Shown here: piece by piece, positions 17,349 to 58,231 of the stretch
How the letters are laid out: every line of letters starts with the position of its first letter
Numbering within the stretch: the stretch's first letter is position 1
Virus record (IMG/VR): IMGVR_UViG_3300049043_000112
Location: 62,001 to 126,000 of that record
Direction: 5' to 3' (one strand)
Origin: a virus
Length of the DNA stretch: 64,000 bases
Position numbers and translations under genes: made by a program
Notes under the pieces: model-generated
The model's input: only the letters and a program-made list of their open reading frames with translations
Database searches by the model: none
What the model was told of the DNA's origin: nothing

Positions 17349-17405
17349 AGTATAAGACCCCCCAGAGCGGATCGTGGGGGTCGGTGGCCAGTGTCAGAAC
17401 TGGAT
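17349..17405 (-). promoter_or_regulatory. TGNCA-type promoter element before 17145-17324
   Basis: ATCCA-N10-TGGCCAC, 29 bp, then TATACT. A weak copy of the half-sites but with exact spacing; the spacer holds a C5/G6 hairpin. Confidence 0.55.
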
Positions 17406-17537
17406 CGCTTCGAAGTGGGCGGCGGCGTCTGCGATGTTATCCTGCTCAACCCCATCCACAAGGGTCTCCAGAATCTGCAGGATCTCATCGCCATTGGTGC
17501 CACGGCGGAGCAGGGAGATGGCAAGGTTGCTGGTCAT
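17394..17537 (-). CDS. Conserved small cyanophage protein (47 aa)
   Basis: MTSNLAISLLRRGTNGDEIL then QILETLVDGVEQDNIADAAA. The NLAISLLRRG start recurs in cyanophage small proteins. Mostly helical; function unknown. The next gene's promoter element overlaps its 3' end. Confidence 0.65.
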   Translation of the reverse strand: MTSNLAISLLRRGTNGDEILQILETLVDGVEQDNIADAAAHFEAIQF

Positions 17538-17597
17538 GGTTCGTTTGTATCAGTGTGGTTTGTGGGCGTCTTTCAGGGCGCACCCGTTCCCATTGTA

Positions 17598-17789
17598 TCA
17601 GGCAGCGATCAGCAGGTCATCCTCCCAACGGGCAACGCTCAGGACCTCATCATAGAACAGCAGGTCAGCGATCTGATCCATCGTAGCACTGAACTGGCGC
17701 TGCTCATCCGCCTTCATAATGGCGGCACGGCACTGGGCAGCGATCTCATCGATGCTCAGAGCGCGGTCGGTGGCGGGGTTGTAGCGCAT
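17598..17789 (-). CDS. Small acidic helical protein (63 aa), GC-rich island
   Basis: MRYNPATDRALSIDEIAAQC then QIADLLFYDEVLSVARWEDD. Own promoter element upstream. No family recognised. Confidence 0.6.
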   Translation of the reverse strand: MRYNPATDRALSIDEIAAQCRAAIMKADEQRQFSATMDQIADLLFYDEVLSVARWEDDLLIAA

Positions 17790-17816
17790 GGGGTGTTGCC
17801 TTTGGTTGACTTGTAC

Positions 17817-17873
17817 AGTGTAGAGTGGCGGGGGTCAGTTGCGACCCCCTGGTGGACAGTTGCTGGATTGTCA
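17817..17873 (-). promoter_or_regulatory. TGNCA-type promoter element before 17598-17789
   Basis: TGACA-N10-TGTCCAC, 29 bp, then TACACT. The spacer contains GGGGGTC-N6-GACCCCC. Confidence 0.65.
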
Positions 17874-18059
17874 GTCCAGGGCGCCCTCTTCATTCAGGAC
17901 GCCGCAGGCAAACTCCAGACCGTTGCCCAGATCATAGATGCCCAGGTACAGGCGACCGATGCTGATGCCCAGGTACTCACCGCTGCGGGCGGGGGCGTTC
18001 AGGTCAAAACCGAAGTAGAACAGGTCGGCGTTGATCAGGTCGTGAGTGTTGAAGCGCAT
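17871..18059 (-). CDS. Small hypothetical protein (62 aa), GC-rich island
   Basis: MRFNTHDLINADLFYFGFDL then ISIGRLYLGIYDLGNGLEFA. Beta-rich. Promoter element and TCTCTCAGTTCAC leader upstream. Unknown role. Confidence 0.65.
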   Translation of the reverse strand: MRFNTHDLINADLFYFGFDLNAPARSGEYLGISIGRLYLGIYDLGNGLEFACGVLNEEGALD

Positions 18060-18083
18060 GGGGTTCAGGTGTGAACTGAGAGA

Positions 18084-18140
18084 ATTGTAGAGCAGTTTAG
18101 GGTCAGTGCTCAGGACCGTGTGCCAGTTGCTCAGGCGGTT
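18084..18140 (-). promoter_or_regulatory. TGNCA-type promoter element before 17871-18059
   Basis: AACCG-N10-TGGCACA, 29 bp, then TACAAT. Confidence 0.65.
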
Positions 18141-18337
18141 GCCAGGGCGGATTCGAAGTTGATCTCCCGCTCTTCAATCTCTGCCCAATCATACTCTCCC
18201 TGTTCACCAGGAGCGCCCTCCAGTTGCTCAGCGTATGCCTGGGCGGTGGACTTGCAATCGAACAGGCGCAGGGAGCGGAAGTCGGCACCCTCATACTGGA
18301 TGCAACCGATCACAGCGTAGACACGTTGCTGAGGCAT
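18131..18337 (-). CDS. Small hypothetical protein (68 aa), GC-rich island
   Basis: MPQQRVYAVIGCIQYEGADF then RLFDCKSTAQAYAEQL and an acidic tail. The pattern beta-strand, FDCKSTAQAYAEQ helix recurs in small phage proteins that handle conditional stress, but no function is assignable. Confidence 0.65.
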   Translation of the reverse strand: MPQQRVYAVIGCIQYEGADFRSLRLFDCKSTAQAYAEQLEGAPGEQGEYDWAEIEEREINFESALATA

Positions 18338-18360
18338 TGGGGTTCCTTTGAACTGAGATC

Positions 18361-18417
18361 AGTATAGAGGGTCAGGTGGGGGGTTGGTGCCCCCGTGTGC
18401 CAGTGCCTCAATCGGCA
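18361..18417 (-). promoter_or_regulatory. TGNCA-type promoter element before 18131-18337
   Basis: TGCCG-N10-TGGCACA, 29 bp, then TATACT. The left half lies in the last codons of the upstream gene. Confidence 0.7.
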
Positions 18418-18584
18418 TAGAGGGATTGGAAGTCCTCCACAAACTCCCGTGCCTCATCGCCACTCATGCGGGAGATCATCTCCCGCCCGACGGTCTCCCA
18501 GGAGAAGTCGTCTGCCAGGTCGTAGATTGCGACACGTGCCTGGTTGGCGGTCATCCAGGCGGCGTTGATCTGGTCGTAGGACAT
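18408..18584 (-). CDS. Small hypothetical protein (58 aa), GC-rich island
   Basis: MSYDQINAAWMTANQARVAI then WETVGREMISRMSGDEAREF. Helical and acidic. The start is the ATG following the TATACT leader; the longer in-frame extension would cover the promoter. Confidence 0.65.
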   Translation of the reverse strand: MSYDQINAAWMTANQARVAIYDLADDFSWETVGREMISRMSGDEAREFVEDFQSLYAD

Positions 18585-18608
18585 GGGTTGGTTGGTTGAA
18601 CTGATGTA

Positions 18609-18665
18609 AGTATAGAGGGTCAGGCGGTCAGAACCCTGCCTGCTGTTCCAGTTGGTCAAGTGGCA
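18609..18665 (-). promoter_or_regulatory. TGNCA-type promoter element before 18408-18584
   Basis: TGCCA-N10-TGGAACA, 29 bp, then TATACT. The whole palindrome lies within the 3' coding end of the gene at 18628-18816. Confidence 0.7.
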
Positions 18666-18816
18666 CACGGTTCCAGGTGGAGAACAGAGTCACGTGATCC
18701 AGAATGCGGCACATCGTATCGGTGTCGGTCTGGGGGTCATCCAGCACCTGATCCATGCCGATGCTCATCAGGCGGTGGATCACGGCGTAGGTCTCCTGAC
18801 TGATGGTGATCTCCAT
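18628..18816 (-). CDS. Small hypothetical protein (62 aa), GC-rich island
   Basis: MEITISQETYAVIHRLMSIG then DPQTDTDTMCRILDHVTLFS. Helical; the last 12 codons also encode the next gene's promoter element. TACAAT with the CTCAACCGCAACAGACCC leader upstream. Confidence 0.65.
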   Translation of the reverse strand: MEITISQETYAVIHRLMSIGMDQVLDDPQTDTDTMCRILDHVTLFSTWNRVPLDQLEQQAGF

Positions 18817-18848
18817 GGGTCTGTTGCGGTTGAGAGTATTGTAGCAGG

Positions 18849-19031
18849 TCAGCGGCGGTCGGTGAGTGCCAGGAAGGCGAACCCTGCCAGGCAGATCAGG
18901 GCGATGATGCCTGCGGCGGTCACATCCTGCTGCGTCAGTTGGGGGCGGGGACTGGAGGTGCCGACGCTGCTACCGTGCCCTGTGAAGCAGCTGGTGCAGA
19001 CGGGAACGTAGGCGGCGAAGGGGGCAGGCAT
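18849..19031 (-). CDS. Small membrane protein with CxxC motif (60 aa)
   Basis: MPAPFAAYVPVCTSCFTGHG, a linker, and a C-terminal hydrophobic helix (AAGIIALICLAGFAFLAL) ending TDRR. Probably a single-pass inner-membrane protein with a small Cys-containing domain. The start is set by the TACAAT leader. Confidence 0.6.
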   Translation of the reverse strand: MPAPFAAYVPVCTSCFTGHGSSVGTSSPRPQLTQQDVTAAGIIALICLAGFAFLALTDRR

Positions 19032-19053
19032 CGGGTCTGTTGCGGTTGAGATC

Positions 19054-19111
19054 ATTGTAGGGGGTGGCGCCCCTCTCTGGTGAGGTTTGATGGACGGTTC
19101 TCCAATTGGCA
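19054..19111 (-). promoter_or_regulatory. Weak TGNCA-type promoter element before 18849-19031
   Basis: TGCCA-N10-CGTCCAT, 30 bp, then TACAAT. The right half is degenerate but the spacing is right. Confidence 0.45.
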
Positions 19112-19131
19112 CACTAAATAGTTGTTGCCTG

Positions 19132-19201
19132 GTTTGTGTGGTAACTTGTCAGGTTGGGGAGATTTTATCATCTCCCCTTATAAATAATACACCACACAAA
19201 C
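19132..19201 (+). promoter_or_regulatory. Late-expression switch before the HNH gene
   Basis: Order on the plus strand: 5' arm GTTTGTGTGGT (19132-19142), hairpin GGGGAGAT-N6-ATCTCCCC (19156-19177), late promoter TATAAATA (19179-19186), 3' arm ACCACACAAAC (19191-19201), ATG at 19211. The arms pair over 11 bp. A transcript from upstream would contain both arms; one from the late promoter would lack the 5' arm. Confidence 0.65.
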
Positions 19202-19210
19202 ATAGAGCAG

Positions 19211-19651
19211 ATGAAAGAAATTGCAGGGCATCCTGGTTACTTTGTCACAGAAGATGGCAGAGTGTTTAGTAACAAATCAGGAGAGTTAAAAGAAAGAAAG
19301 CAGTATAAACATAAAAAAGGATATAAGATAATCTGCATCAATACGGAGGGAAAACAATATACTTTGAGGGTGCATAGATTAGTTGCAGAATTGTATATCC
19401 CAAATCCAAACAATTTACCTCAAGTTAATCATAAAGATGAGGTCAAAGATAATAACCACATTAACAACTTAGAGTGGTGTGATAATCAATACAACTGCGA
19501 ATATTCACACGCAAAGACGCATAAAATAAAAACCCCCACAGGTGAAACTGTAGAGGTCTTTAATATCAGAAAGTTTTGTAGAGAGAATAACCTTCACTCT
19601 GGTGCTCTATACACTAGAGGAAAGAATAAAGGTTATTCTCTCATTAATTAG
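19211..19651 (+). CDS. HNH homing endonuclease (NUMOD4 + HNH)
   Basis: 146 residues. The N-terminal NUMOD4 motif MKEIAGHPGYFVTEDGRVFS is followed by the HNH core VHRLVAELYIPNP, PQVNHKDEVKDNNHINNLEW and a C-terminal NUMOD-like DNA-contact module. AT-rich in a GC-rich island and on the opposite strand to its neighbours, so an inserted selfish element. It overlaps the convergent gene by 4 nt. Late promoter and hairpin upstream suggest late expression. Confidence 0.9.
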   Translation: MKEIAGHPGYFVTEDGRVFSNKSGELKERKQYKHKKGYKIICINTEGKQYTLRVHRLVAELYIPNPNNLPQVNHKDEVKDNNHINNLEWCDNQYNCEYSHAKTHKIKTPTGETVEVFNIRKFCRENNLHSGALYTRGKNKGYSLIN

Positions 19652-19887
19652 AAGGCGACTAACTGATCAATGGTCCACTGATCAACCTCCTGAACGTCGC
19701 CACCGCAGTTCTTCCGCAGCCAGGCGTTGATGTGCTTCGTGGTGGTGCTGCTCCACTTGTGGGCGGTGCGGATCCAACCCTTACCAGGCACCAGGGCGGC
19801 AACGGGGGTCACGTAGGAGAACAGGATGCAGGTCCCGTCTGCCAGTTGCACCTCAGTCTGGTTGCTGCCGATCTGTTGGACGATCAT
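19648..19887 (-). CDS. Conserved cyanophage protein (79 aa)
   Basis: MIVQQIGSNQTEVQLADGTC, then FSYVTPVAALVPGKGWIRTA and KWSSTTTKHINAWLRKN. This arrangement (beta strands, TPVAA, then WSxTTxKHIN helix) is widespread in phages as an uncharacterised family. Function unknown. Confidence 0.75.
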   Translation of the reverse strand: MIVQQIGSNQTEVQLADGTCILFSYVTPVAALVPGKGWIRTAHKWSSTTTKHINAWLRKNCGGDVQEVDQWTIDQLVAF

Positions 19888-19909
19888 GGGGTTCCTTTGA
19901 ACTGATGTA

Positions 19910-19967
19910 AGTATAAGGGGTCAGACGGTCAGGGAGGCGGGGGGTTGTGCCACTGGTTTAAGTGTCA
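19910..19967 (-). promoter_or_regulatory. TGNCA-type promoter element before 19648-19887
   Basis: TGACA-N10-TGGCACA, 30 bp, then TATACT. Confidence 0.75.
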
Positions 19968-20075
19968 CCACCACCATGGGGTTCTGGGGTTGACTTTCAT
20001 CCCCATGGCAGCACACAGTATGGGGAACCCGATGGCAACGACCATCAGCAGGGCGGCGGCAAGGTAGTGATTCAT
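19965..20075 (-). CDS. Tiny membrane protein (36 aa)
   Basis: MNHYLAAALLMVVAIGFPIL then CAAMGMKVNPRTPWWW. One transmembrane helix and a Trp-rich end. Its ATG overlaps the upstream stop (ATGA), so it is translationally coupled. Confidence 0.55.
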   Translation of the reverse strand: MNHYLAAALLMVVAIGFPILCAAMGMKVNPRTPWWW

Positions 20076-20188: not shown

Positions 20189-20191
20189 GGG

Positions 20192-20338: not shown

Positions 20339-20360
20339 GGGGTTGGTTGCTGATGAAATC

Positions 20361-20417
20361 AGTATAAGGGGTCAGGGTGCCAGGTCTACGGGGTGTGTGC
20401 CACCTGTTCAACTGGCA
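20361..20417 (-). promoter_or_regulatory. TGNCA-type promoter element before 20192-20338
   Basis: TGTGCCA-N10-TGGCACA, a perfect 7-bp palindrome, then 29 bp and TATACT. Confidence 0.8.
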
Positions 20418-20448
20418 CACGGGCAGCCGACCTGAGTATACCTAACTC

Positions 20449-21345
20449 CTACGCTGCCACGTTGAAGCGCCCAGCGTTGAAGTTATGATAAGCGAAGACC
20501 TCACGATTCACCAGTTTGAACATACCAAACTCATTAGAGAGAACATAACCTTCGGCATCAATTCGGTTGCCGTTGATGTATGCTGCAGGACCATTGTTGC
20601 GGCACAGGAACAGGCAGTCATCTTTGATCGACTTCACCAACGCCCACAGACGCAGCAGGTTAGCATCACAATCAAAGTCCTCTGCTACGATCTCATCACC
20701 AGCACGAATGTAGGCATTGATCTGTTGTTTGATTCGTGCTGCCTCTTTATCACTCACAAAGGTTGCAGTGGTTGCCATTTGACGGGCGAACATGCACACC
20801 TCTTCAACATCAGCGAACGACGTTTGACCGTGCTGGATGTATGCTTCAGGTTGCACGAACAGAACGTGCTCAGTGCTCTGCAGATTCACCATCAGAGGCT
20901 CTGCCCAACTGTCACGAAGATCGTCGTTTGCTTCATACACAGTGTGCGGAGCGATGATAATGTTCTGGGTCACAATGTCTCCGAACAGATAGGTAATCGT
21001 GTTGGGAGTGTACTCATTCAGACCACCAAACCCGATAAAGTCACCCTGAATGATAGACTCAGTACGGGGCAGATGGTCAAGGCACGAGTGCAGAATTTGG
21101 GCAACTTCACCCTGATAGAACGCATCAACCTCCTCATGATTGTGGGCAATACGAATCTTTTTCTTGTTAAAGACTGCTTTGGTTCCTACAAAGAACTCAC
21201 CGCAGGCAGGATCAATACCCCACACGATTGCAGGACTTCCATCAATTTTTACACTTAACTTACCAGGATTGACAAACCAATCCAAAACCGACAAATCTCC
21301 CGTAAGGATGGTATCTTCAGGATGTTCGAGGTGTGTGTTTTGCAT
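20449..21345 (-). CDS. KxDG-motif nucleotidyltransferase/ligase-like protein
   Basis: 298 residues. LSVKIDGSPAIVWG (Lys at about 33) matches motif I (KxDG) of covalent nucleotidyltransferases; GEFFVGTKAVFNKK and SIIQGDFIGFGG fit later motifs of an uncharacterised T4-like phage family with a ligase-type adenylation fold. Start: the ATG giving MQNTHLEHPEDTIL, after the AATACT promoter; an upstream in-frame codon lies inside the promoter element. Substrate unknown. Confidence 0.65.
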   Translation of the reverse strand: MQNTHLEHPEDTILTGDLSVLDWFVNPGKLSVKIDGSPAIVWGIDPACGEFFVGTKAVFNKKKIRIAHNHEEVDAFYQGEVAQILHSCLDHLPRTESIIQGDFIGFGGLNEYTPNTITYLFGDIVTQNIIIAPHTVYEANDDLRDSWAEPLMVNLQSTEHVLFVQPEAYIQHGQTSFADVEEVCMFARQMATTATFVSDKEAARIKQQINAYIRAGDEIVAEDFDCDANLLRLWALVKSIKDDCLFLCRNNGPAAYINGNRIDAEGYVLSNEFGMFKLVNREVFAYHNFNAGRFNVAA

Positions 21346-21366: not shown

Positions 21367-21424
21367 AGTATTGCACGGATTCAGGAGGACCACAAGGGGT
21401 CTTGTGCCAGTTCTCAAAGTGGCA
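21367..21424 (-). promoter_or_regulatory. TGNCA-type promoter element before 20449-21345
   Basis: TGCCA-N10-TGGCACA, 30 bp, then AATACT. The opposite strand here carries the late promoter of the HNH gene at 21462. Confidence 0.75.
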
Positions 21425-21429
21425 TATAA

Positions 21430-22296: not shown

Positions 22297-22354
22297 AGTA
22301 TTGCACGAAAAAGGGGAGACCGCAACCCCCCTTGTGCCACTCTCTCAACCGTCC
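22297..22354 (-). promoter_or_regulatory. TGNCA-type promoter element before 22102-22290
   Basis: GGACG-N10-TGGCACA, 30 bp, then AATACT. The spacer has a GGGG/CCCC hairpin followed by T5, a rho-independent terminator. Confidence 0.75.
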
Positions 22355-22533
22355 TCCAGCAGATCGGGATAGTAAGATTCAACCTCAGAAATCAGTTCCT
22401 CATCAGTATAGCTGGTGATGTTTTCTTCCATCTGATCACCAACAATACGAAGCAAATCCTTGGTGCTCATGTTATCAAGCAAACGGTCAATGTATGCTTC
22501 AACGAGTGCTTGACGATTGAAAGTGTTGCTCAT
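22345..22533 (-). CDS. Conserved small cyanophage protein (62 aa)
   Basis: MSNTFNRQALVEAYIDRLLD then RIVGDQMEENITSYTDEELI and EVESYYPDLLEDG. This pattern recurs in cyanophage genomes. Acidic and helical; unknown role. Confidence 0.7.
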   Translation of the reverse strand: MSNTFNRQALVEAYIDRLLDNMSTKDLLRIVGDQMEENITSYTDEELISEVESYYPDLLEDG

Positions 22534-23040: not shown

Positions 23041-23098
23041 AATGTATCAGGGTCTGGGGGGCATTGCAACCCCCTATGTGCCACTCTCTCAACTGGCA
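23041..23098 (-). promoter_or_regulatory. TGNCA-type promoter element before 22891-23016
   Basis: TGCCA-N10-TGGCACA, 30 bp, then TACATT. The spacer carries a GGGGG/CCCCC hairpin. Confidence 0.8.
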
Positions 23099-23107
23099 CA
23101 AGAATTC

Positions 23108-23267: not shown

Positions 23268-23325
23268 AACATAAACCACCACGTGGCAGATATCAAGGGG
23301 TCTTGTGCCAGTTACGAAACTGTCC
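23268..23325 (-). promoter_or_regulatory. TGNCA-type promoter element before 23108-23242
   Basis: GGACA-N10-TGGCACA, 30 bp, then TATGTT. Confidence 0.7.
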
Positions 23326-23437
23326 ACCAAACCCCCCACAAGGTCCCTTGCCGTGATATCTTAATATTAATCGAATGAGGGGAAGGGTATCCCTGCAGAC
23401 GAAAATACATCGCCACTCCCCCTGCCATAAAATATTC

Positions 23438-23474: not shown

Positions 23475-23496
23475 TGTGCCAATATTTAAACTGTCA
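23475..23496 (-). promoter_or_regulatory. TGNCA-N10-TGGCACA element without a -10 box
   Basis: TGACA-N10-TGGCACA lies just after the stop of 23499-23651. At the usual distance there is a 12-bp inverted repeat instead of a -10 box, so this copy may be disrupted. Confidence 0.55.
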
Positions 23497-23498
23497 CA

Positions 23499-29634: not shown

Positions 29635-29691
29635 ATTATACTGCCCTTACCAGGCGGTTCGGGAAGAACTGTGCCACTTGATGATCCGTCC
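29635..29691 (-). promoter_or_regulatory. TGNCA-type promoter element before 29446-29610
   Basis: GGACG-N10-TGGCACA, 29 bp, then TATAAT; the half-sites lie inside the SprT-like coding region. Confidence 0.75.
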
Positions 29692-30112
29692 ACCCGTTCT
29701 TCTCAAACAGGTACTCCAGATATAGCGTTTCTTCTTGCTCCCGTGCCTCTATTTCGTGTGGTTGATGCCAATAGTCGTAAAGTTCAACTGCTATTTTACC
29801 ATAATGCATTTTTCCGCGTTTCATCCGCAGTGAACCACGTACCCATTGCCGCAGGTGGACCAGTTCGTGTAAAAGGGTTTTTATATACAACTCCTCCTCC
29901 ATATGAGTATCCAATTCAATCAGAAACTCACGGGGACGATAAGATTCACCCACGTAGTCGCAGTAACCAAAGACTTCTTCACGTTTCAGACCACGATGGA
30001 GAATCTCCACATCAATCTTATGACGTGGTAGAAAACGATTTAGAAACCAAGTGGCAACGTCCTCACAGAGGCGTTTAGAATAACCGTATCCAGAAGTTTG
30101 AATGTAAGACAT
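29636..30112 (-). CDS. SprT-like zinc metallopeptidase
   Basis: 158 residues. LYIKTLLHELVHLRQWVRGS carries HExxH (HELVH) and the distal HEIEAREQEE offers a further ligand, as in SprT/SPRTN-like proteases. These bind DNA-protein contexts or process proteins. Start at MSYIQTSGYGYSKR; the last codons encode the next promoter element. Confidence 0.75.
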   Translation of the reverse strand: MSYIQTSGYGYSKRLCEDVATWFLNRFLPRHKIDVEILHRGLKREEVFGYCDYVGESYRPREFLIELDTHMEEELYIKTLLHELVHLRQWVRGSLRMKRGKMHYGKIAVELYDYWHQPHEIEAREQEETLYLEYLFEKNGWTDHQVAQFFPNRLVRAV

Positions 30113-30497: not shown

Positions 30498-30554
30498 ATT
30501 ATAGGGCATCCAGAGGGGTCTGGTGTGCCCTATGTGACAGTTGTTGAACTGGTT
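30498..30554 (-). promoter_or_regulatory. TGNCA-type promoter element before 30247-30474
   Basis: AACCA-N10-TGTCACA, 29 bp, then TATAAT. Confidence 0.7.
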
Positions 30555-30700
30555 CAGCGAGTGTAAGAATAACCAGATTTTAAGGATTTATGAATTTCAG
30601 ACATAGTTTCTTCACTACTCTTTAGTCTGGGATTACAAATAGGTGGTGGAGGTGGATTATAGAGTTTAATCGTTAATGATAAACGAAGATCATTTCGCAT
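30554..30700 (-). CDS. Small proline-rich protein (48 aa)
   Basis: MRNDLRLSLTIKLYNPPPPP then NPRLKSSEETMSEIHKSLKS. Overlaps the upstream gene's end by 11 nt. Unclear function. Confidence 0.5.
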   Translation of the reverse strand: MRNDLRLSLTIKLYNPPPPPICNPRLKSSEETMSEIHKSLKSGYSYTR

Positions 30701-31148
30701 ACAGATATCCTCCCGCCCAATCAGCATTCTCAAGCAACCATTCACGCTGCTCAATGATGCGGAGATCGTAGCGAACACCCTTAGCAGGTGCTTTCCAACT
30801 GGCGCTTTTGTAAACTTGACCAGTCTTCTTATCCACAAAAGCGTGGACAGAACGGGAACCATTTGCAACCATAATAATTTTGTGATACTTACGACCCGTT
30901 TCAGGGTAGAACTCATAATCACAAACACCATTCTTCAGGTCTTGAATACATGCGAGATGATAGGTCTCTTCGCAATCAGTGATAATATCTTCCAGACTTT
31001 TCAAAGAACGCTGGTGCGACTTGATGCTGTAATCAATGTAATTCTGACGCAGTGCCTCACACAGAGCATAGGTGTGACCCAGAACTGCCTCTGCGATGTT
31101 CTTCCGTGCCTCTGCAGTGGCGGCGTAGTCAGCGAAGGTGGTGGTCAT
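30690..31148 (-). CDS. Conserved phage protein (152 aa)
   Basis: MTTTFADYAATAEARKNIAE then YEFYPETGRKYHKIIMVANG and SRSVHAFVDKKTGQVYKSAS. The last motif (VHAFVDKKTGxVYKxASW) is common in cyanophage proteins of unknown function. Own promoter element. Confidence 0.75.
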   Translation of the reverse strand: MTTTFADYAATAEARKNIAEAVLGHTYALCEALRQNYIDYSIKSHQRSLKSLEDIITDCEETYHLACIQDLKNGVCDYEFYPETGRKYHKIIMVANGSRSVHAFVDKKTGQVYKSASWKAPAKGVRYDLRIIEQREWLLENADWAGGYLYAK

Positions 31149-31169: not shown

Positions 31170-31226
31170 ATTATAGGAGCATACAGGGGCATTTCAGGAA
31201 GCCCTGTGCCACCCGTTAAACTGTCA
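31170..31226 (-). promoter_or_regulatory. TGNCA-type promoter element before 30690-31148
   Basis: TGACA-N10-TGGCACA, 29 bp, then TATAAT. One of the best copies. Confidence 0.82.
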
Positions 31227-31625
31227 CATAAACGCTTCCACGCCAACAGGATTGCCGAAACTATAGTCATATTCAAGGGCGTTGGCACAGACAAAATGTG
31301 GATGTTTTACGTCAACACCAAGACGTTCACACAATTCCTTATGATTATCCTCCATAAGTTCCACAGCGTACAGCATATTATCCAAAATATGTTCGGAAGA
31401 GTGATATTCCTTGAGTTTTTCGTACAGTGCAACCATAAAGTTGCCAGAACCAGCAGAATTATCAAGAAATGTGCTTTTAGGATTTTTCAGCACATCTTCT
31501 GGAATTTCAGATACCATCTTGGCGCAAAGTTCTGCAGGAGTGAATACTTCACCAGTTGCATCAATCCTGTCATCAGAGCGTTCAATCTCCGACCCGACCA
31601 TTTCATTATGCTTATTCTTGGACAT
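31224..31625 (-). CDS. Split adenine methyltransferase, AdoMet-binding half
   Basis: 133 residues. DATGEVFTPAELCAKMVSEI is the motif-X region of Type I/IIG N6-adenine methyltransferases, FLDNSAGSGNFMVAL (53-67) is motif I, MLYAVELMEDNHKELCERL motif II, and CANALEYDY motif III. It ends before motif IV (NPPY), which is on the separate upstream protein 31628-32623. Probably associates with it to methylate DNA. Last gene of the operon. Confidence 0.78.
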   Translation of the reverse strand: MSKNKHNEMVGSEIERSDDRIDATGEVFTPAELCAKMVSEIPEDVLKNPKSTFLDNSAGSGNFMVALYEKLKEYHSSEHILDNMLYAVELMEDNHKELCERLGVDVKHPHFVCANALEYDYSFGNPVGVEAFM

Positions 31626-31627: not shown

Positions 31628-32623
31628 TTAGGATACCTCATTAAAAGGCGATGGAATTTTTTTGAACAGATCTTTAGTAGGATGAAAAGAAGTCATATTC
31701 ATCTTAACAAGTTCCTTAACCTTATCAGACATAAGGTAATCTCTAAGAATGACTGCATCCTCGATTGTATCCGTTTTTAGGAACACAACACTGAAAGTAA
31801 CAGATGCTTCATAAGGTTTGATCATAATTTTACCCAGTCCACCCCACTCTGCTGCCATATTCATAATGACACCGTGCTGATTGCGACCAGTTTCTTCTAA
31901 ACCAGGTTCAATATACCTAATTTTTGGAGTCTCTTCTGTCCCAAGAATTTCAACAATCGGAACACCACCAGGATGATCTTTGATTGCATTCCGATACAGA
32001 TTTCCGTTAAAATACCTGTGTGCCATATTGTTAGAAACTTGATCAATAAAGTTAGGATTGTCCAACTTGATCAAGTCTTTCTCTGTCAGATTTTTTTCAA
32101 TAACTGTACCGTCCTTATAAGTAACCTTGCAAGGTCCTTTGTGATTTTTATCCCAGGTTACAACACAAGTTTGAGTATTCTGAACAGTCGGAAACGTTTC
32201 TGGCGGAAGGTATTGAATAGAAACCAAATTCCCAGAACTGAACAGTTTTTTTCTAAAATTAGAGGAAGATTTCATAAAGTGTTTTGCCCTAATAATTAGA
32301 GAAACTCTGTCAGCAATTTCTGTGCTTTTCGTAAAGAAATCAGAATCCAAATTATTAGAACAACCACCCGTATTAGCACCACTAACTTTAGAGCGATCGG
32401 AATATGGAGGGTTACCGATTACAACATTAAACCTCATACCTTTATCCGCAAGTTCTAAAAATTCCTGAAAATCTACAACTACATTTATTTTATCATTTAT
32501 CTGATTGATTGTATAGATGTGCCTAGGATCATTCTCCCAAACCCAAATATTCTCTGGTGAATATTTTTTAAGGGCAACCATCGAATGAGTACCCTTAGGG
32601 TCTCCAATAATCAGGAGGTTCAT
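31628..32623 (-). CDS. Split adenine methyltransferase, NPPY catalytic half
   Basis: 331 residues. NVVIGNPPYSDRSK (NPPY at 71-74) is catalytic motif IV of N6-adenine methyltransferases, followed by SLIIRAKHFM and a C-terminal region resembling target recognition. The N-terminus NLLIIGDPKGTHSMV / NIWVWENDP looks like a degenerate AdoMet fold, so it may be a second partial domain. Overlaps the helicase stop (ATGA) and lies 2 bp from 31224-31625. Confidence 0.78.
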   Translation of the reverse strand: MNLLIIGDPKGTHSMVALKKYSPENIWVWENDPRHIYTINQINDKINVVVDFQEFLELADKGMRFNVVIGNPPYSDRSKVSGANTGGCSNNLDSDFFTKSTEIADRVSLIIRAKHFMKSSSNFRKKLFSSGNLVSIQYLPPETFPTVQNTQTCVVTWDKNHKGPCKVTYKDGTVIEKNLTEKDLIKLDNPNFIDQVSNNMAHRYFNGNLYRNAIKDHPGGVPIVEILGTEETPKIRYIEPGLEETGRNQHGVIMNMAAEWGGLGKIMIKPYEASVTFSVVFLKTDTIEDAVILRDYLMSDKVKELVKMNMTSFHPTKDLFKKIPSPFNEVS

Positions 32624-43209: not shown

Positions 43210-43988
43210 TTATGATATTCTTACTCTTTTGGAAGTATCTATTTCTCTTGCTCGTTGATATTGAGTAAGATTTCCAGCATTAGTTATAAATCCAGTTTCA
43301 AGACACATCCATTTTTGTGAGGCAACTTTTTTACCAGTTTCACTCATTTGCTTACTCGTCAACGAAAATATTCCTTTTTCTCTTCATAATTTTTCTTGAC
43401 TATTTGCCGTTTTTCTTCAGTAGTTAAAGAAAATATTCCCTTACCTTCATCACGAAGTTTTTTTCCTTTTTCACTATGGTTCTCAAAAGTTTGTGCGTGA
43501 ATTCCTTTTCGTTCTTTATAAAGTTTTTGCCCGTTTCTTTTTCCCAATTCACTTCTTTCTTCAAAAGTTTGTGAGTGAATTCCTTTTTTATCTCTATAAA
43601 GTTTTTGTCCTCTTTTTCTTCTTTCTTCTGTGGTTTCTGCGTGAATTCCCTTACATTCTTTATATTGATTTTGTCCAGTTTTTCTATTAATATTTAATGA
43701 AATAAAACCACCACAATTTTCATTCAAGCACCACTTATCTGTATTGTAAAATGGTTTGATTAATCTTTTTTCAACTTCTTGTGCTTCAATATATCCTTCA
43801 TCAGTAAAATCAAAAAACTGGAGTATTTGTTTCTTTGGAGTATAAAGTTCCCAACACCATTTATGAGTTATAGGAGAACCCATATAATACTCATTATATG
43901 TTTTTTCTTTATGAACACCATAATAGTAATACAAAACTTCCTCAAAGGTAATTTTGTATAAGTATATTCTTGGACTTTGTGAAGTCAT
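43210..43988 (-). pseudogene. GIY-YIG-like/NUMOD3 homing endonuclease with C-terminal frameshift
   Basis: Intact for 209 codons (43359-43988): IYLYKITFEEVLYYYYGVHK, a GIY-YIG-like core (YYYGVH, EYYMGS), then NUMOD3 repeats such as KGIHAETTEERRKRGQ and KGIHSQTFEERSELGK. It ends at KKEYFR. One more A at 43375-43379 restores KGIFSLTSKQMSETGKK and WMCLETGFITNAGNLTQYQR to a stop at 43210, matching the end of the homologue 47777-48502. Confidence 0.75.
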
Positions 43989-44917: not shown

Positions 44918-44974
44918 ATTATAAAGCATCCAGAGACACCCAGAGCATCCCCTGTGCCAGTTCTTCAAGTGTCT
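44918..44974 (-). promoter_or_regulatory. TGNCA-type promoter element before 44664-44894
   Basis: AGACA-N10-TGGCACA, 29 bp, then TATAAT. Confidence 0.78.
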
Positions 44975-45642
44975 TATGCTACACCATCAGCACTATCTTT
45001 CCATTCAGTATCTTCTTTATCTCTCAAACTATCCAATACTTGAAGAAGAAAGGCAATAGAGTCAGCATACTCTCGTCCATCTTGCCCACCCATTACCATA
45101 TAAGCAATCTCTTTCTCAGCAAGTTCAATTCTCTCATTTCTTGTAAGTTCTTCTAGTGTAGGACGATACCATTCACCATTTTCCTTCTTTTTGTAACCAG
45201 CAGCAAGTTTTCTGGTTTCTTCCTCTTGTTCCCATCGTTTTACATAAGCAAGTTGTCCGAATTCTTCTTCCTCAATTTCAGCAAGTTTCGTCATCGCATT
45301 ACCATTCTCTTCATAGAGTTTATCAAGAGCATCAAGAGCCTTCCGTTCTGCTTCTCTTTTTTCTGCTAATTCAAACATTTCATCGGGATATGGTTCAGTC
45401 ATTTTGATTTCAAGTTTAGTTTCAGGTGCTTTGGTTCCAATAGTAAGGTCTTCAAGAGTAAATTGACCAGTCATACGGGAAGTTTCTTTACCATTAGTCT
45501 TGAAGATTAAGTCCTTATCCATAAGTTCTCTCAATTTCTGTTTGCCGTATTCTGTGAGTTCTTTTTTAGATTTGCGGAGATCTTCTACTTCCTTATCAGA
45601 AAGATGGAACCCATCAGGAATGTTCCCGTATTCTTCGGTCAT
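44974..45642 (-). CDS. Charged helical protein (222 aa)
   Basis: MTEEYGNIPDGFHLSDKEVE then LTEYGKQKLRELMDKDLIFK and EKREAERKALDALDKLYEEN. Rich in Glu/Lys, long helices. Unknown. Start chosen at the ATGA overlap with 45639-45788; an in-frame ATG exists 27 bp upstream. Confidence 0.68.
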   Translation of the reverse strand: MTEEYGNIPDGFHLSDKEVEDLRKSKKELTEYGKQKLRELMDKDLIFKTNGKETSRMTGQFTLEDLTIGTKAPETKLEIKMTEPYPDEMFELAEKREAERKALDALDKLYEENGNAMTKLAEIEEEEFGQLAYVKRWEQEEETRKLAAGYKKKENGEWYRPTLEELTRNERIELAEKEIAYMVMGGQDGREYADSIAFLLQVLDSLRDKEDTEWKDSADGVA

Positions 45643-47084: not shown

Positions 47085-47696
47085 TCAATATTCATAAAAT
47101 TGATCAATTACTTTATAATCTTTATCTCGTACCGTACCAGCATAAGGATAGATAGAACTTACAGTTTCTTCCATATCAGGAACAACTTCATAACGGTAAA
47201 TGTCATCGGCATTTCCACCACAATCAACAGAGATTACATTTCCGTCAGGTAAAGTACCACTATAAGTAAAAATATACTTATAATAACTTGAAAATTTCAC
47301 CTTTACTTCACCGTATTTTTCAATAAACTCTTCTTTTGTCATTTGGAGTTGGCAGTGTTGTTTGTGTATGAGAGCATTATACGACAAAAGGCACTCGGTT
47401 TCAAGTGCCCGTGTTCCAGTTTGCGAAGTGTCCTTTTCTATTTCATCATAATACTCTGGTTCATCAGGTGGTTCAGGGTACCCATCTTTTAATTGTACTG
47501 CTTCATAACCCTTCTGGAAGGCATCCCAACTCACAGCATCCCAATCTCCCATAGCAATACTTGTTTCTGGATAATGTCCATAAACATCTTTATATGCTTC
47601 TTCTACTGGAGATTTCATCTTCTCCATTTCTTCCAAGAGTGCAAGTTGCTTTTCCAGCACTTTGATTTCTCCTTCTACTTGTTCAATTAGGTTCAT
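47085..47696 (-). CDS. Two genes read as one frame: coiled-coil protein plus 85-aa protein
   Basis: Part 1 (from 47696): MNLIEQVEGEIKVLEKQLAL, EEAYKDVYGHYPETSIAMGD to EPEYYDEIE. Then codons run through a promoter element (47376-47433) without a stop, into part 2, which has its own ATG at 47342: MTKEEFIEKYGEVKVKFSSY to YKVIDQFYEY. In most other places a stop codon precedes this element, so a stop was probably lost. Part 2 (47085-47342) is likely the separate gene. Confidence 0.6.
   Translation of the reverse strand: MNLIEQVEGEIKVLEKQLALLEEMEKMKSPVEEAYKDVYGHYPETSIAMGDWDAVSWDAFQKGYEAVQLKDGYPEPPDEPEYYDEIEKDTSQTGTRALETECLLSYNALIHKQHCQLQMTKEEFIEKYGEVKVKFSSYYKYIFTYSGTLPDGNVISVDCGGNADDIYRYEVVPDMEETVSSIYPYAGTVRDKDYKVIDQFYEY
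47376..47433 (-). promoter_or_regulatory. TGNCA-type promoter element for 47085-47342
   Basis: GGACA-N10-TGGAACA, 30 bp, then TATAAT; the spacer is GGCACT-N8-AGTGCC + TTTT, a terminator. It lies within the long open frame. Confidence 0.75.
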
Positions 47697-47718: not shown

Positions 47719-47776
47719 ATTATAACCTGTAAGGCACCCGAAATCAAGTGCCCGTATTCCAGTTTATAAAGTGTCC
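47719..47776 (-). promoter_or_regulatory. TGNCA-type promoter element before 47085-47696
   Basis: GGACA-N10-TGGAATA, 30 bp, then TATAAT; spacer hairpin GGCAC-N10-GTGCC. Confidence 0.75.
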
Positions 47777-48502
47777 TTATGATACTCTCACTCTTTTAGA
47801 AGTATCAATACCTTTTGCTTTTTGATATTTTGATAAACCACCAGAATTAGTGATATAACCAGTTTCAAGGCACATCCATTTTTGTGCGTTATTTTTTCTG
47901 GATAATTCACTTCTTTGTTCTGGTGTTAGTGAAAAAATACCAGTTCCATTTTTCATTTGGGTTCTTGCCCCCATTCTACCATATTCACTTCTTACTTCTT
48001 TTGGTAATTTTCCAAGTCCGCTTGCATATGCTTTTTTGGCAGAGGCAGATAATTCTTCACTCGTTAGTGTGAATATGCCGAGTTTATTATCTCTTGTATA
48101 AGCACCATTTCTTTTTCCAAGTTCAACTCTTTCTTCTGTTGTAAGTTGAAACATTCCTAATTTATTTTTATGTTGATTTTTTCCTTTTCTACTTGCCTCT
48201 TCAAAAGATGGTATATAACAAAACTTTGTAGAAGTTTGTTTGGATTTATTAGCAAAGTGTGGATTTTCAACTACTTTATAATACTCTTGTAAAATAATCT
48301 TATCAGCATATGCTTCCTCTCTTGTAGCATAATCACTTTTCAAAATTATCTTCTGTGTTGGATTGAATGTCCTATCGTGAAAAGAACCAAAATACTTTAC
48401 ATCTTCTTCTGGTAAGCATTTACAAGTTCTACTACCAATATATCCTCTACCATATTCCTCATAGGAATAATAGGTGTAATGATACTCTTTTTGAGTTTCC
48501 AT
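47777..48502 (-). CDS. GIY-YIG/NUMOD3 homing endonuclease
   Basis: 241 residues. YHYTYYSYEEYGRGYIGSRT is a GIY-YIG-like core (YYS...GYIGSR), then QKIILKSDYATREEAYADKI. NUMOD3 repeats follow (KLGMFQLTTEERVELGKRNG, KLGIFTLTSEELSASAKKAY, GTGIFSLTPEQRSELSRKNN) and the end KWMCLETGYITNSGGLSKYQ. Homologue of 43210-43988. Confidence 0.8.
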   Translation of the reverse strand: METQKEYHYTYYSYEEYGRGYIGSRTCKCLPEEDVKYFGSFHDRTFNPTQKIILKSDYATREEAYADKIILQEYYKVVENPHFANKSKQTSTKFCYIPSFEEASRKGKNQHKNKLGMFQLTTEERVELGKRNGAYTRDNKLGIFTLTSEELSASAKKAYASGLGKLPKEVRSEYGRMGARTQMKNGTGIFSLTPEQRSELSRKNNAQKWMCLETGYITNSGGLSKYQKAKGIDTSKRVRVS

Positions 48503-50853: not shown

Positions 50854-50911
50854 ATTATAAGGCATCCAGAGGCACCTGTGAAGTGTCCTTGTGCCAGTTC
50901 TTCAAGTGTCA
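50854..50911 (-). promoter_or_regulatory. TGNCA-type promoter element before 50544-50828
   Basis: TGACA-N10-TGGCACA, 30 bp, then TATAAT. The TGA of the left half is the stop codon of 50909-51094. Confidence 0.82.
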
Positions 50912-51094
50912 GTCAAGGTTTTCAATCTCTTCACATAGTTCCAATAAATCATAACACATAATCACACCAGGAGACACTTGAAGAACATTAATCACCTCAC
51001 GGAGAGTAGCAGCAAGATGTAGGTTAGGGTCGTGCTGTGGGTCATAATAATAATGAGAAAATACTTTTCTTGCTTTTTCTTTCATAGTAGTCAT
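50909..51094 (-). CDS. Small hypothetical protein (61 aa)
   Basis: MTTMKEKARKVFSHYYYDPQ then ATLREVINVLQVSPGVIMCY. Helical. ATGA overlap with 51091-51294. Confidence 0.65.
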   Translation of the reverse strand: MTTMKEKARKVFSHYYYDPQHDPNLHLAATLREVINVLQVSPGVIMCYDLLELCEEIENLD

Positions 51095-52401: not shown

Positions 52402-52561
52402 AGTAGAGTTCAACTCCATACTTGTTTTTGAGGTTGTCTGTGAGGTAATCATACAGCAGGTCGGCAAACCCGTAATGGGGTCTTGTGCCACTTTCTATAC
52501 TGGAACTGGTCGCCACTGTCCACATTATATCCAGTGCTTTCTTATCAGGTAGGTTCTTCAT
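52361..52561 (-). CDS. Small protein overlapping a promoter element (66 aa)
   Basis: MKNLPDKKALDIMWTVATSS then HYGFADLLYDYLTDNLKNKY. The coding frame contains the promoter element at 52448-52505. Sequence looks protein-like, but it could be two short frames. Confidence 0.5.
   Translation of the reverse strand: MKNLPDKKALDIMWTVATSSSIESGTRPHYGFADLLYDYLTDNLKNKYGVELYYEPQREESTTQET
52448..52505 (-). promoter_or_regulatory. TGNCA-type promoter element before 52129-52401
   Basis: TTCCA-N10-TGGCACA, 30 bp, then TATGAT. Confidence 0.65.
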
Positions 52562-54875: not shown

Positions 54876-54884
54876 GCACTAAAA

Positions 54885-55184: not shown

Positions 55185-55221
55185 GATATCTTAACAATAA
55201 TTTATGCCTACGAGTTTATAC

Positions 55222-55543: not shown

Positions 55544-55752
55544 TCCTGCTCCAAACATTTTTCAAATTTATCTCTTAACTCATTCAGTTTCGTTTGATGT
55601 TGAAACTCCATAATATGTTCATTTAGTTCTTTTTCCTTATCAGTAAATTGCATACGATACTTTGTCTTAATATCAATCAATCGCACCATATCCATATAGT
55701 GCTCTGGACTTTTATTGACAAACTCTTCGTAGGTCAATCTCTTGTTCTCCAA
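55540..55752 (-). CDS. Small helical protein (70 aa)
   Basis: MENKRLTYEEFVNKSPEHYM then QFTDKEKELNEHIMEFQHQT. Coiled-coil-like. Confidence 0.65.
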   Translation of the reverse strand: MENKRLTYEEFVNKSPEHYMDMVRLIDIKTKYRMQFTDKEKELNEHIMEFQHQTKLNELRDKFEKCLEQE

Positions 55753-56051
55753 TCGTTTTCGTCTTCATCACGCTTAAACCAATCAAGAAGTTCATCTGGA
55801 TTGTCAAAACCACGACGACCAAAACGTTCGTGTCCCATACCACCAATATCAAGTTGGTTTAGGAAGTCATCCATTTCATCCATATCAGGGTTCTCTGCTC
55901 TCCTTCTTGCCTGACGGAGTATTGTAGCGGCAGAGCGGTTTGCTTTTGCAAGTTTTTCTGCCCAAATCATATCTTCAAGACTTACCTCTTCATGAAGTAC
56001 AATCTTCTCACAGATTGCTTCAAGTCTTAACCGATATTGTGTAGAGAGCAT
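55734..56051 (-). CDS. Conserved cyanophage protein (105 aa)
   Basis: MLSTQYRLRLEAICEKIVLH then DMIWAEKLAKANRSAATILR and GFDNPDELLDWFKRDEDEND. Typical cyanophage protein of unknown role; helical, acidic end. Confidence 0.74.
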   Translation of the reverse strand: MLSTQYRLRLEAICEKIVLHEEVSLEDMIWAEKLAKANRSAATILRQARRRAENPDMDEMDDFLNQLDIGGMGHERFGRRGFDNPDELLDWFKRDEDENDWRTRD

Positions 56052-56071
56052 AACCTACTCCAAGTATGAGA

Positions 56072-56302
56072 TTATTTATTTTCGTATTCGTCCATTAACT
56101 CCTTTGCGAGTTTCATAGAACGACGCCACATTAGATATTTTACCATAGGATTGCGTGGATTATTCAATAACCACCACTTCTGCTTTTCATAGTTAGACTT
56201 TGCTAACTTAAGCATATAATAAAAAGCAGCGGCAACACTTTCATCAGTCACGATGAAATATGCCACCACTGCAAATACGATAAACCAAGCGTAATAAGTC
56301 AT
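56072..56302 (-). CDS. Small membrane protein (76 aa)
   Basis: MTYYAWFIVFAVVAYFIVTD then FYYMLKLAKSNYEKQKWWLL. One membrane helix; basic cytoplasmic part. ATGA coupling. Confidence 0.68.
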   Translation of the reverse strand: MTYYAWFIVFAVVAYFIVTDESVAAAFYYMLKLAKSNYEKQKWWLLNNPRNPMVKYLMWRRSMKLAKELMDEYENK

Positions 56303-56469
56303 CGTCTAATAGTTTTTAGATAGTCTAGCACGTGCTCACGAACTGACATGAGTTCGTTGTAACATTTTTGATTGTGAGCACATTGGCGTAGTTCGTGATC
56401 TGGTTTATGAACACTTTCTATAAACAAATCCAAACCACGATTCCATTTGACTTCGGGAGTTTCTTCCAT
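56299..56469 (-). CDS. Small hypothetical protein (56 aa)
   Basis: MEETPEVKWNRGLDLFIESV then HNQKCYNELMSVREHVLDYL. Helical. Confidence 0.6.
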   Translation of the reverse strand: MEETPEVKWNRGLDLFIESVHKPDHELRQCAHNQKCYNELMSVREHVLDYLKTIRR

Positions 56470-56500
56470 AATCAATGATGTAGTTGTACTATTTAACTAG

Positions 56501-56743
56501 TTAGAAAAACTTGTCTAAACTAGAAACCGATGCGCCTTTTGCAGACTTTTGAATGTAGGTTTTGGCGGATTTGTAGTTGTTGGCAACGTGAACTTGTTGA
56601 CCATTGTAAATGATTATAAACTTCTTACCAAATGGAACTGCTGCCCACATTCCATCTTTGGTTACATAACCTTCAGGGTCTCCTGGTGTTTCTTTTAAAA
56701 TACCAGGACGAGGAATAAAAGGTTTCTGAAACTTTTCGCTTAT
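56501..56743 (-). CDS. Conserved small protein lacking a normal start (ATA at 56743)
   Basis: (ATA) SEKFQKPFIPRPGILKET then GYVTKDGMWAAVPFGKKFII and HVANNYKSAKTYIQKSAKGA. No ATG/GTG precedes the conserved part; the codon before it is ATA. With G in place of A the site would read GGATGA, a start overlapping the upstream stop as in its neighbours. Confidence 0.6.
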   Translation of the reverse strand: MSEKFQKPFIPRPGILKETPGDPEGYVTKDGMWAAVPFGKKFIIIYNGQQVHVANNYKSAKTYIQKSAKGASVSSLDKFF

Positions 56744-56883
56744 CCGAATACTGCAGTGACACTGATAATTTTAGCCTTAGGATTACGAGCAAGTGCAGTT
56801 TCTCTTGCATCTTGATAATCACGTGCCTCTACGATCTCATCAAAGACCTTACCAGCAACAAAAAGTTGAACTTTGCAGCGCAT
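56740..56883 (-). CDS. Conserved small cyanophage protein (47 aa)
   Basis: MRCKVQLFVAGKVFDEIVEA then YQDARETALARNPKAKIISV. The RCxVQLxVAGK...EARDYQDAR pattern is a standard cyanophage small protein. Confidence 0.75.
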   Translation of the reverse strand: MRCKVQLFVAGKVFDEIVEARDYQDARETALARNPKAKIISVTAVFG

Positions 56884-56925
56884 TGGGTGGATTCCTCCTG
56901 ATGTGTAGGTAGTATAGCAGAAAAA

Positions 56926-58155
56926 TCAGCGTTTGACCACGCTGATGGCAGGGAGACCCTCATTGAAGACGGTATCCACCACCGCTTGGACCTTCCGTGC
57001 CGTGCTGATGCCCACAGAGGAGTAGACAGGGATGCAGACCAGACCGAAGGACTTGGTGTAGTCTTGCAGTGCTCCAGGGGCAATACGACCGCTCTGGAGA
57101 CCCGCTGCGTCGTCCTTATGAAGGCGGATGACCCGTCCAATGGTCTGGGAGATGCCGATATAGTCCATAGAGCGCATAAACAGCACTGCCTCCAGACCAG
57201 ACACGTTGATGCCCTCGGACAGGATGCTATGGTGCAGAACCACAAACTTCTTAGAGTCATCCTTGCCCCAGGCACTCAGAGTGTCGAAGAACACCTCACG
57301 GTTGACCTTTTGACCATCAATTACGGCACCAGTCTTAGACGTGATATACATCCAAGAAAAACCACGATCCTCCAGTTGTTGACAGAAATCAGTCTCAGAA
57401 ACCAGAGAAACAATCTGTTTGGTTGCCTTAGAGCAAATCAGAACCTTGCCAACTTCTTGGGCATCAATAGTCTGAATCAGATTCTCACAATCGACATCAG
57501 CAACAATTTGACCCTTAGAGAGCATCTCAAACTGCTGCACAACAACCTTTGGGGGCACAATGAAACCACCCTCCACCAGTTCAGGAGCAGGGACGTTACA
57601 GATGACGTTGCCATAAACGGCAGCGTCGTTCATCCCAGGTTTGGAAACAGTAGCAGAATGCTTAGGAGTAGCAGTGAAGAAATAGCAGCGGTCAGCATTA
57701 GTAGCGAAGTGCTCCGTAGCAGGGAAAAAGTGACGCTGGACACTGTTATGCGCTTCATCGAAGTAAATGGTATCAACGTGAATATCTGCCTGTTGCAGGC
57801 GTTGCAGGGAGTTATAGGTGGTGAAAATCAGTTGGTGCTTGTATGCACGACGGGACCAGTTGTAAATCTCAGAAGGTTTAGTGGTGCTCTGGTGATGCGT
57901 CTCACCACTATGCACGTGCAGAACAGCAGCAGTCGTGATAAACTCCAGAAACTCAGCAGAGAGTTGCTCAGCAAGCAAAATGCGAGGAGCAACAACAACA
58001 ATGGTCTTAGGAGTATCGGACTGAAACTCACGCAGAGCATCAAAGATAGCAATGTTAGTCTTACCACCGCCAGTCGGAATGATCACCTGACCTTTCAGAT
58101 ACTTAGCAAGGGCATCCAGAGCACGTTGCTGGTGGGGGCGAAGTTGGATCATCAT
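56926..58155 (-). CDS. SF2 DEAD/DEAH-box helicase
   Basis: About 410 residues. IQLRPHQQRALDAL, VIIPTGGGKTNIAI (Walker A), TIYFDEAHNSVQR (DEAH), YFFTATPKH (motif III), FVVLHHSILSEGINV and GISQTIGRVIRLHKD (motifs V-VI). Same family as T4 UvsW/Rad3-like helicases common in cyanophages, probably for replication or repair. Start at the ATGATG after TATAAT; an upstream in-frame codon is TTG. Confidence 0.88.
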   Translation of the reverse strand: MMIQLRPHQQRALDALAKYLKGQVIIPTGGGKTNIAIFDALREFQSDTPKTIVVVAPRILLAEQLSAEFLEFITTAAVLHVHSGETHHQSTTKPSEIYNWSRRAYKHQLIFTTYNSLQRLQQADIHVDTIYFDEAHNSVQRHFFPATEHFATNADRCYFFTATPKHSATVSKPGMNDAAVYGNVICNVPAPELVEGGFIVPPKVVVQQFEMLSKGQIVADVDCENLIQTIDAQEVGKVLICSKATKQIVSLVSETDFCQQLEDRGFSWMYITSKTGAVIDGQKVNREVFFDTLSAWGKDDSKKFVVLHHSILSEGINVSGLEAVLFMRSMDYIGISQTIGRVIRLHKDDAAGLQSGRIAPGALQDYTKSFGLVCIPVYSSVGISTARKVQAVVDTVFNEGLPAISVVKR

Positions 58156-58174
58156 CAACCAATTCAATACAGAT

Positions 58175-58231
58175 ATTATAACACCAGAATCGGCAGCACA
58201 AAACTCCAGTGTGCCAGTTCTGAAATTGTCC
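58175..58231 (-). promoter_or_regulatory. TGNCA-type promoter element before the SF2 helicase
   Basis: GGACA-N10-TGGCACA, 29 bp, then TATAAT. The plus strand carries the late promoter of 58262-60418 just beyond. Confidence 0.78.

Follow-up and report, generated by a model that had tools for sequence, protein, structure and literature searches.

The window analysed here is a 64,000-nucleotide stretch, given on one strand, that comprises bases 62001–126000 of the 236,016-bp virus record IMGVR_UViG_3300049043_000112, a T4-like cyanophage. Its minus strand carries many copies of a dyad element, hereafter the box, each standing at a nearly fixed distance upstream of a −10 box and its gene. A sequence-only reading of the window had described about 25 minus-strand promoters in which the half-sites TGNCA and TGGCACA, always 10 bp apart, are followed after 28–31 bp by a −10 box. 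The five copies that it named as best (20361, 23041, 31170, 35378, and 50854) are all present exactly as stated, and the repeated promoters are real, but their number is lower, namely 21 strong units and one probable degenerate copy at 17384–17407, whose unit (17349–17407) is the first one of the sequence-only reading.

Copies of the box in the window and the genome

The pattern TGNCA-N10-TGGCACA with up to two mismatches gives 45 matches in the window vs. 17.6 ± 4.1 in dinucleotide shuffles, and none of 100 shuffles reaches 45. A composite matrix of the 24-bp element, the gap, and the −10 box was trained solely on other viral contigs and used at a score threshold of >12. It picks out 21 sites on the minus strand of the window, whereas 100 block-wise dinucleotide shuffles, with both strands scanned, average 0.02 sites and never exceed 1. 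A matrix scan against shuffled sequence was the check set by the sequence-only reading, which it bears out, together with 336 copies of the same geometry in related viral contigs. The whole genome contains 22 strong minus-strand units, of which 21 lie between 80 and 121 kb and one outlier lies at 26,386, and the reversed genome sequence contains none. The 40-kb stretch that holds these 21 copies consists mostly of small genes. Similar clustering is seen in relatives: with matrix hits on either strand counted, the densest 20% of each genome holds 26/27 in this phage, 31/34 in ACG-2014f, and 19/21 in P-SSM2. At 23475–23498 a dyad is present, but the minus strand has no −10 box at the right distance.

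Architecture of the promoters

Iterated matrices built from the window and viral contigs give the 24-bp dyad consensus TGTGMCASTT-N4-AASTGGCACA upstream of the −10 box, with the half closer to the −10 box being the better conserved one. The half-sites and their 10-bp gap are thus found as described; the gap, however, is not featureless, as the inner GTT/AAC is conserved and only the middle 4 bp of a single dyad are free. The distance from the box to the −10 box is 28 bp in one, 29 bp in ten, 30 bp in nine, and 31 bp in one of the 21 window units, all within the claimed range. Beyond the window the same preference appears among 446 boxes, taken from the window and fetched viral contigs and selected regardless of the downstream sequence: −10-like hexamers peak at 29 bp (174) and 30 bp (88), with nearly all other offsets at 0–5.

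In the 336 viral copies, a purine start is predicted 12 nt after the first −10 base, where A or G stands in 316/336, followed by T. The dyad centre lies at −53.5 or −54.5 relative to this start (29- or 30-bp gap, respectively), in agreement with the earlier estimate of about 54 bp. The TATAAT-type −10 box carries 1.3–2.0 bits per position, and the first ATG mostly follows 15–20 nt past the predicted start; in the window, most start codons are found 56–61 nt after the box.

The sequence-only reading held that no −35 box fits these promoters and that an activator site replaces it. The first part is too strong, since TTGACA is matched at ≥5/6 positions in 32/248 non-redundant spacers vs. about 4 in shuffles, a signal mainly limited to a 16–17 bp spacing from the −10 box. 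The box itself spans −65 to −42. With this end point, and with a degenerate −35 over-represented, the box would assist a weak −35 rather than replace it; the near-fixed spacing typical of an activator site stands, whereas the replacement does not, the −35 position being free. When k-mers enriched at given distances from −10 boxes were sought de novo, TGGCAC (−37) and TGTGAC (−54) emerged independently in ACG-2014f and, separate from this box signal, TTGACA (−24) in most genomes. There are two promoter classes in these phages, box-type and TTGACA-type. Searching for TTGACN promoters with a permissive regular expression did no better than its own null.

A symmetric dyad alone cannot separate an activator from a repressor, and the box could be the operator of a phage or host repressor by which these promoters are shut down at some point. 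Repressor sites, however, usually overlap the −35 and −10 boxes or the start and occur at varied positions, whereas the constant placement of the box upstream of the polymerase footprint, combined with a poor −35, is activator geometry; we regard repression as improbable. A known regulator could also be imagined as the reader, as TGGCACA resembles the −24 element of sigma-54 promoters and TGTGA resembles CRP half-sites. However, no conserved GC follows TGGCAC after 10–12 bp, the sigma-54 pattern TGGCAC-N5-TTGC is not found, the bases 5–9 nt after TGGCAC are unconserved, and a sigma-70 −10 box stands at 29–30 bp instead. The half-sites, 18 bp apart, likewise misfit both TGTGA-N6-TCACA and the GTA-N8-TAC of NtcA, so that a sigma-54 promoter or a CRP/NtcA site is hardly credible here.

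Genes behind the box and stem-loops in the spacers

The genes driven by the box are mostly small and of narrow distribution, yet several families keep it across genera. The DUF6267 gene is preceded by the box in this phage, Syn9, P-SSM2, ACG-2014f, and Syn33, the DEAD/ResIII helicase gene in this phage, S-PM2, and ACG-2014f, and the gp150-type peptidase family, which by our own reading appears CobT-like, in this phage (at 26 kb), P-HM2, and S-SKS1. A CobS-like AAA protein keeps it in S-PM2 and P-SSM2, and the gp32 single-stranded DNA-binding protein in S-PM2 and Syn33; these last two names come from position and sequence reading. Because the box–gene pairs are conserved across genera, they are strong evidence of function.

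The spacers between the box and the −10 box are enriched in stem-loops, with a mean folding z-score of −1.27 over the 248 non-redundant spacers vs. a median of −0.01 for upstream stretches and a mean of −0.01 for downstream stretches. Folding energies below −5 kcal/mol are reached by 144/248 spacers, of which only 33 contain a T run; window examples are the units at 34893–34950, 43151–43211, and 47376–47435. As the stem sequences differ among copies, the stem is unlikely to be a protein site, and the simplest reading is that the stem-loop may be the terminator of the upstream gene nested within the next promoter. Many copies with stem-loops nearby also bring to mind the "promoter early stem-loop" cassettes of the T4 family, and the box might then be a repeat, or part of a mobile cassette bearing a promoter, that has spread through the genome with no specific reader. 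However, conservation among copies is limited to the box, the −10 box, and the start region, with unrelated spacers and flanks, and the same gene families retain the box across genera. We consider a cassette very improbable.

Distribution among phages

The exact composite pattern occurs at more than 100 viral loci among the matches listed. Phage records were scanned with a sequence model (R1), whose counts include both strands of palindromic sites, and the box was found in 13/19 of the records scanned and in P-TIM40. The counts are 41 in ACG-2014f, 26 in P-SSM2, 18 in S-SKS1, 16 in P-HM2, 14 in S-PM2, 10 in P-SSM4, 9 in Syn33, 8 in Bellamy, 6 each in S-SCSM1 and Syn9, 4 in S-CAM3, and 2 in S-SM2. 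P-TIM40 has 11 matches, most of them at 48.9–55.1 kb, and the Syn9 copies precede gp73, gp78, gp79, and gp183; in both phages the copies sit in a block of small genes.

No box is found by the model in T4, HTVC008M, Melnitz-3, Ma-LMM01, P-SSP7, or MC09, the last being a T4-like Synechococcus phage with one match by the matrix. HTVC008M, a T4-like pelagiphage, and Melnitz-3, a methylophage, belong to the same family as the T4-like cyanophages, Kyanoviridae, and infect heterotrophs. The absence of the box from these two therefore suggests that it tracks cyanobacterial hosts, though it is not in every cyanophage. The box is restricted to cyanomyoviruses.

Host genomes and candidate satellite islands

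The exact composite pattern occurs in 0 of 84,980 bacterial and archaeal genomes, and the model gives no match in WH7803, RCC307, or WH5701. Three overlapping draws of 300, 400, and 399 host relatives yielded five genomes with matches each, mostly in mobile islands, phage contigs in metagenome-assembled genomes (MAGs), or marginal sites; no clear native host promoter with the box was found by the model in about 700 or more host-family genomes. These results bear on who reads the box. A host transcription factor present at infection could use the same operator and fire the early genes at once, as a virus that enters with its DNA alone must use the contents of the cell, and the −10 and weak −35 boxes are of the host type. 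However, a factor with a site of this specificity would be expected to have targets of its own in the host, which these scans do not show, and MC09 infects Synechococcus with no box by the model and a single matrix match. A host protein as reader, of the kind that the sequence-only reading proposed to capture on the element, is thus doubtful, since native sites found by the model in the genomes of hosts are next to none, and we rate a host reader as rather unlikely. That native host use is hard to find argues instead for a phage-supplied reader.

Two apparent host hits, in G390 and G315, proved to lie on cyanomyovirus-like contigs in MAGs, with baseplate genes, small phage genes, and box promoters. 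The island in G035 is 16 kb long with 44% guanine plus cytosine (GC) in a 72% GC neighbourhood and adjoins a tRNA-Ser gene. It encodes an integrase, AlpA, a Hoc-like capsid-decoration protein, and a type ISP restriction-modification enzyme, and its two boxes are at full strength, scoring 30.6 and 31.0 and lying 29 and 30 bp from the −10-like TAAATT and TATAGT. A related island in G110 (L402:8900-14266, G110 C11), at the same tRNA-Ser, has an integrase 63% identical to that of G035, an AlpA-like protein, and one box with no good −10. In G119 (L271:1480-1580), a right half-box is followed by 30 bp and TATAAT beside a tyrosine integrase, with a second, similar integrase in the region. G167 and G153 have marginal sites, and in G438 C17 (L492:596-657) a promoter-like match lies just downstream of host guaA, ahead of two small open reading frames. 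Searches for phage relatives of the 206-aa protein of the G035 island and of the first small reading frame beside guaA found none.

The G035 island is a candidate satellite of T4-like cyanophages. A further possibility is that the activator is phage-supplied and that such satellite-like islands carry the box to detect when a T4-like cyanophage infects the cell, which we put forward tentatively and with the odds against it. If true, the island–phage link would repeat, independently and in cyanobacteria, the relation between P2 and P4, and the box would mark islands responsive to infection.

Proposed mechanism and search for the reader

Taken with the rival readings above, we propose that a dimeric activator of early host-takeover genes, supplied more likely by the phage than by the host, has the box as its operator (probability roughly 0.6). 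The activator would recruit the cyanobacterial RNA polymerase, in the form that carries the housekeeping sigma factor, to about 22 promoters with a weak −35. A dimer bound to −65 to −42 would adjoin sigma region 4 and the C-terminal domain of the alpha subunit and would compensate for the poor −35 ahead of a good −10, transcription then beginning 12 nt past the first −10 base with the start codon 15–20 nt further on. A phage activator could enter with the virion or be expressed from a first ordinary sigma-70 promoter. Computation shows the element, its dyad, the fixed spacing, the purine at the predicted start, the conserved promoter–gene pairs, and the confinement to cyanomyoviruses. Activation rather than repression, early timing, and the phage origin of the protein are what we infer from these features.

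Several points weigh against this proposal. The early timing of the box promoters is itself one of the inferred elements, and if these promoters are immediate-early, the activator would have to arrive with the virion or be made very early. Copies number just 1–4 in S-SM2 and S-CAM3, and weak host sites may have escaped the large genome scans, whose filters were stricter. In addition, a phyletic screen of phage proteins for the binding protein, which compared 11 related phages with 3 outgroups and is weak evidence, did not identify it. Its best-fitting correlate of the box is phrog_507 (window 55734–56051, minus strand, 105 aa), for which we make no claim and for which Foldseek returned no match with E below 1. 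Conservation of this protein is high among the cyanophages that bear the box, and MC09, HTVC008M, and Melnitz-3 lack it; its AlphaFold model has a predicted local distance difference test score (pLDDT) of 70, i.e., modest confidence, with an N-terminal half predicted to form three helices.

Other candidates were set aside. Syn9 gp230, a "transcriptional regulator" in PHROGs, occurs in the box-less MC09 and weakly in the box-less Melnitz-3. Conserved zinc-finger candidates across the phages amounted to one 64-aa protein, which is not convincing, and a search of 11 phage records for Ogr_Delta (PF04606) gave nothing over the cut-off, S-SKS1 coming closest with an E of 0.002.

Relation to known systems

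Doron et al. 2016 reportedly described a novel regulatory element for early genes in Syn9, with similar results in P-TIM40; the element is said to be conserved in T4-like cyanophages and to differ from the host-like middle promoters, just as two promoter classes are seen here. The present box is widespread in the same virus group and is carried by both of these phages; it is probably that element, and the motif, which the sequence-only reading did not recognise, has probably been described before. Literature searches for the motif text did not find it. New here are the exact geometry, the nested stem-loops, the conserved promoter–gene pairs, and the copies in satellite-like host islands.

One close likeness is to the late promoters of P2/P4, which have an Ogr/Delta box centred near −55, a poor −35, a good −10, and a phage-encoded activator, and whose box is shared by the satellite P4. 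The present dyad is also near −55, with a poor −35 and a good −10. However, the Ogr/Delta box is an 18-bp dyad (TGT-N12-ACA), whereas the present one measures 24 bp (TGT-N18-ACA), and the promoters are late there and probably early here. The middle promoters of T4, which depend on MotA and AsiA, likewise combine an activator box with a sigma-70 −10 and a poor −35 in a T4-like virus, but the MotA box is 9 bp long and replaces the −35 at about −30, whereas the 24-bp dyad ends at −42. T4-like cyanophages are reported to have neither motA/asiA nor T4-type middle promoters (PMC5780444). Class I/II activator promoters, such as those of CRP, share a dimeric site at a fixed helical position upstream of a sigma-70 promoter; the centre of the present box, though, falls between the classical −41.5 and −61.5, and its half-site is different.

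The box bears on how these phages begin their programme without MotA/AsiA. T4-like cyanophages rank among the main killers of photosynthetic bacteria in the ocean, and the box supplies an annotation rule for the early genes of uncultured ones. With its 24-bp site, fixed geometry, and hundreds of natural copies, it offers both a bait and a reporter for finding the activator.

Coordinates and neighbouring features

Table 1. Box promoters of the window (window coordinates) and box-bearing regions in cyanobacterial bins.
Feature	Unit or location	Strand	Element	Gap (bp)	−10 box	ATG or gene	Basis
Probable degenerate copy (CGATCCAGTTCTGACACTGGCCAC)		-	17384-17407	29	TATACT 17349-17354		read from sequence; below matrix threshold
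Box promoter	18084-18142	-	18119-18142	29	TACAAT 18084-18089	ATG 18059	matrix
Box promoter	18361-18419	-	18396-18419	29	TATACT 18361-18366	ATG 18337	matrix
Box promoter	18609-18667	-	18644-18667	29	TATACT 18609-18614	ATG 18584	matrix
Box promoter	19910-19969	-	19946-19969	30	TATACT 19910-19915	ATG 19887	matrix
Box promoter, near-perfect dyad	20361-20419	-	20396-20419	29	TATACT 20361-20366	ATG 20338	matrix
Box promoter	21367-21426	-	21403-21426	30	AATACT 21367-21372	drives DUF6267 gene 20449-21345	matrix
Box promoter	22297-22356	-	22333-22356	30	AATACT 22297-22302		matrix
Box promoter	23041-23100	-	23077-23100	30	TACATT 23041-23046	ATG 23016	matrix
Box promoter	23268-23327	-	23304-23327	30	TATGTT 23268-23273		matrix
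Box promoter	29635-29693	-	29670-29693	29	TATAAT 29635-29640	ATG 29610	matrix
Box promoter	30498-30556	-	30533-30556	29	TATAAT 30498-30503	ATG 30474	matrix
Box promoter	31170-31228	-	31205-31228	29	TATAAT 31170-31175	drives DUF7717 gene 30690-31148	matrix
Box promoter	34893-34950	-	34927-34950	28 (terminator-like hairpin CCCGCC..GGCGGGTTTT)	TATAAT 34893-34898	ATG 34869	matrix
Box promoter, near-perfect dyad	35378-35436	-	35413-35436	29	TATACT 35378-35383	ATG 35352	matrix
Box promoter	43151-43211	-	43188-43211	31 (10-bp stem-loop)	TATAAT 43151-43156	ATG 43128	matrix
Box promoter, top score in window	44918-44976	-	44953-44976	29	TATAAT 44918-44923	ATG 44894	matrix
Box promoter	47376-47435	-	47412-47435	30 (stem-loop)	TATAAT 47376-47381		matrix
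Box promoter	47719-47778	-	47755-47778	30	TATAAT 47719-47724	ATG 47696	matrix
Box promoter	50854-50913	-	50890-50913	30	TATAAT 50854-50859	ATG 50828	matrix
Box promoter	52448-52507	-	52484-52507	30	TATGAT 52448-52453		matrix
Box promoter	58175-58233	-	58210-58233	29	TATAAT 58175-58180	drives DEAD/ResIII helicase gene 56926-58155	matrix
G035 island	L396:10553-20000 + L397:1-6700 (G035 C1 ~113.5-129.7 kb)						
Phage-like contigs in cyanobacterial bins	G390 C3 (L407, L408); G315 C62 (L409)						

The element occurs in GC-rich and AT-rich parts alike, as had been noted from the sequence. Window positions 16001–20000 have a GC content of 61–52%, declining over several kb, vs. 37% for the genome, and the box promoters extend into this region, which was possibly acquired recently. 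On the minus strand at 31628–34740, an Eco57I-type methylase gene (31628–32623) adjoins a T5orf172 and ResIII gene (32620–34740), forming a restriction-modification-like pair. In the whole record of this phage, the T4-type late motif NATAAATA occurs 66 times, 60 of them on the minus strand.

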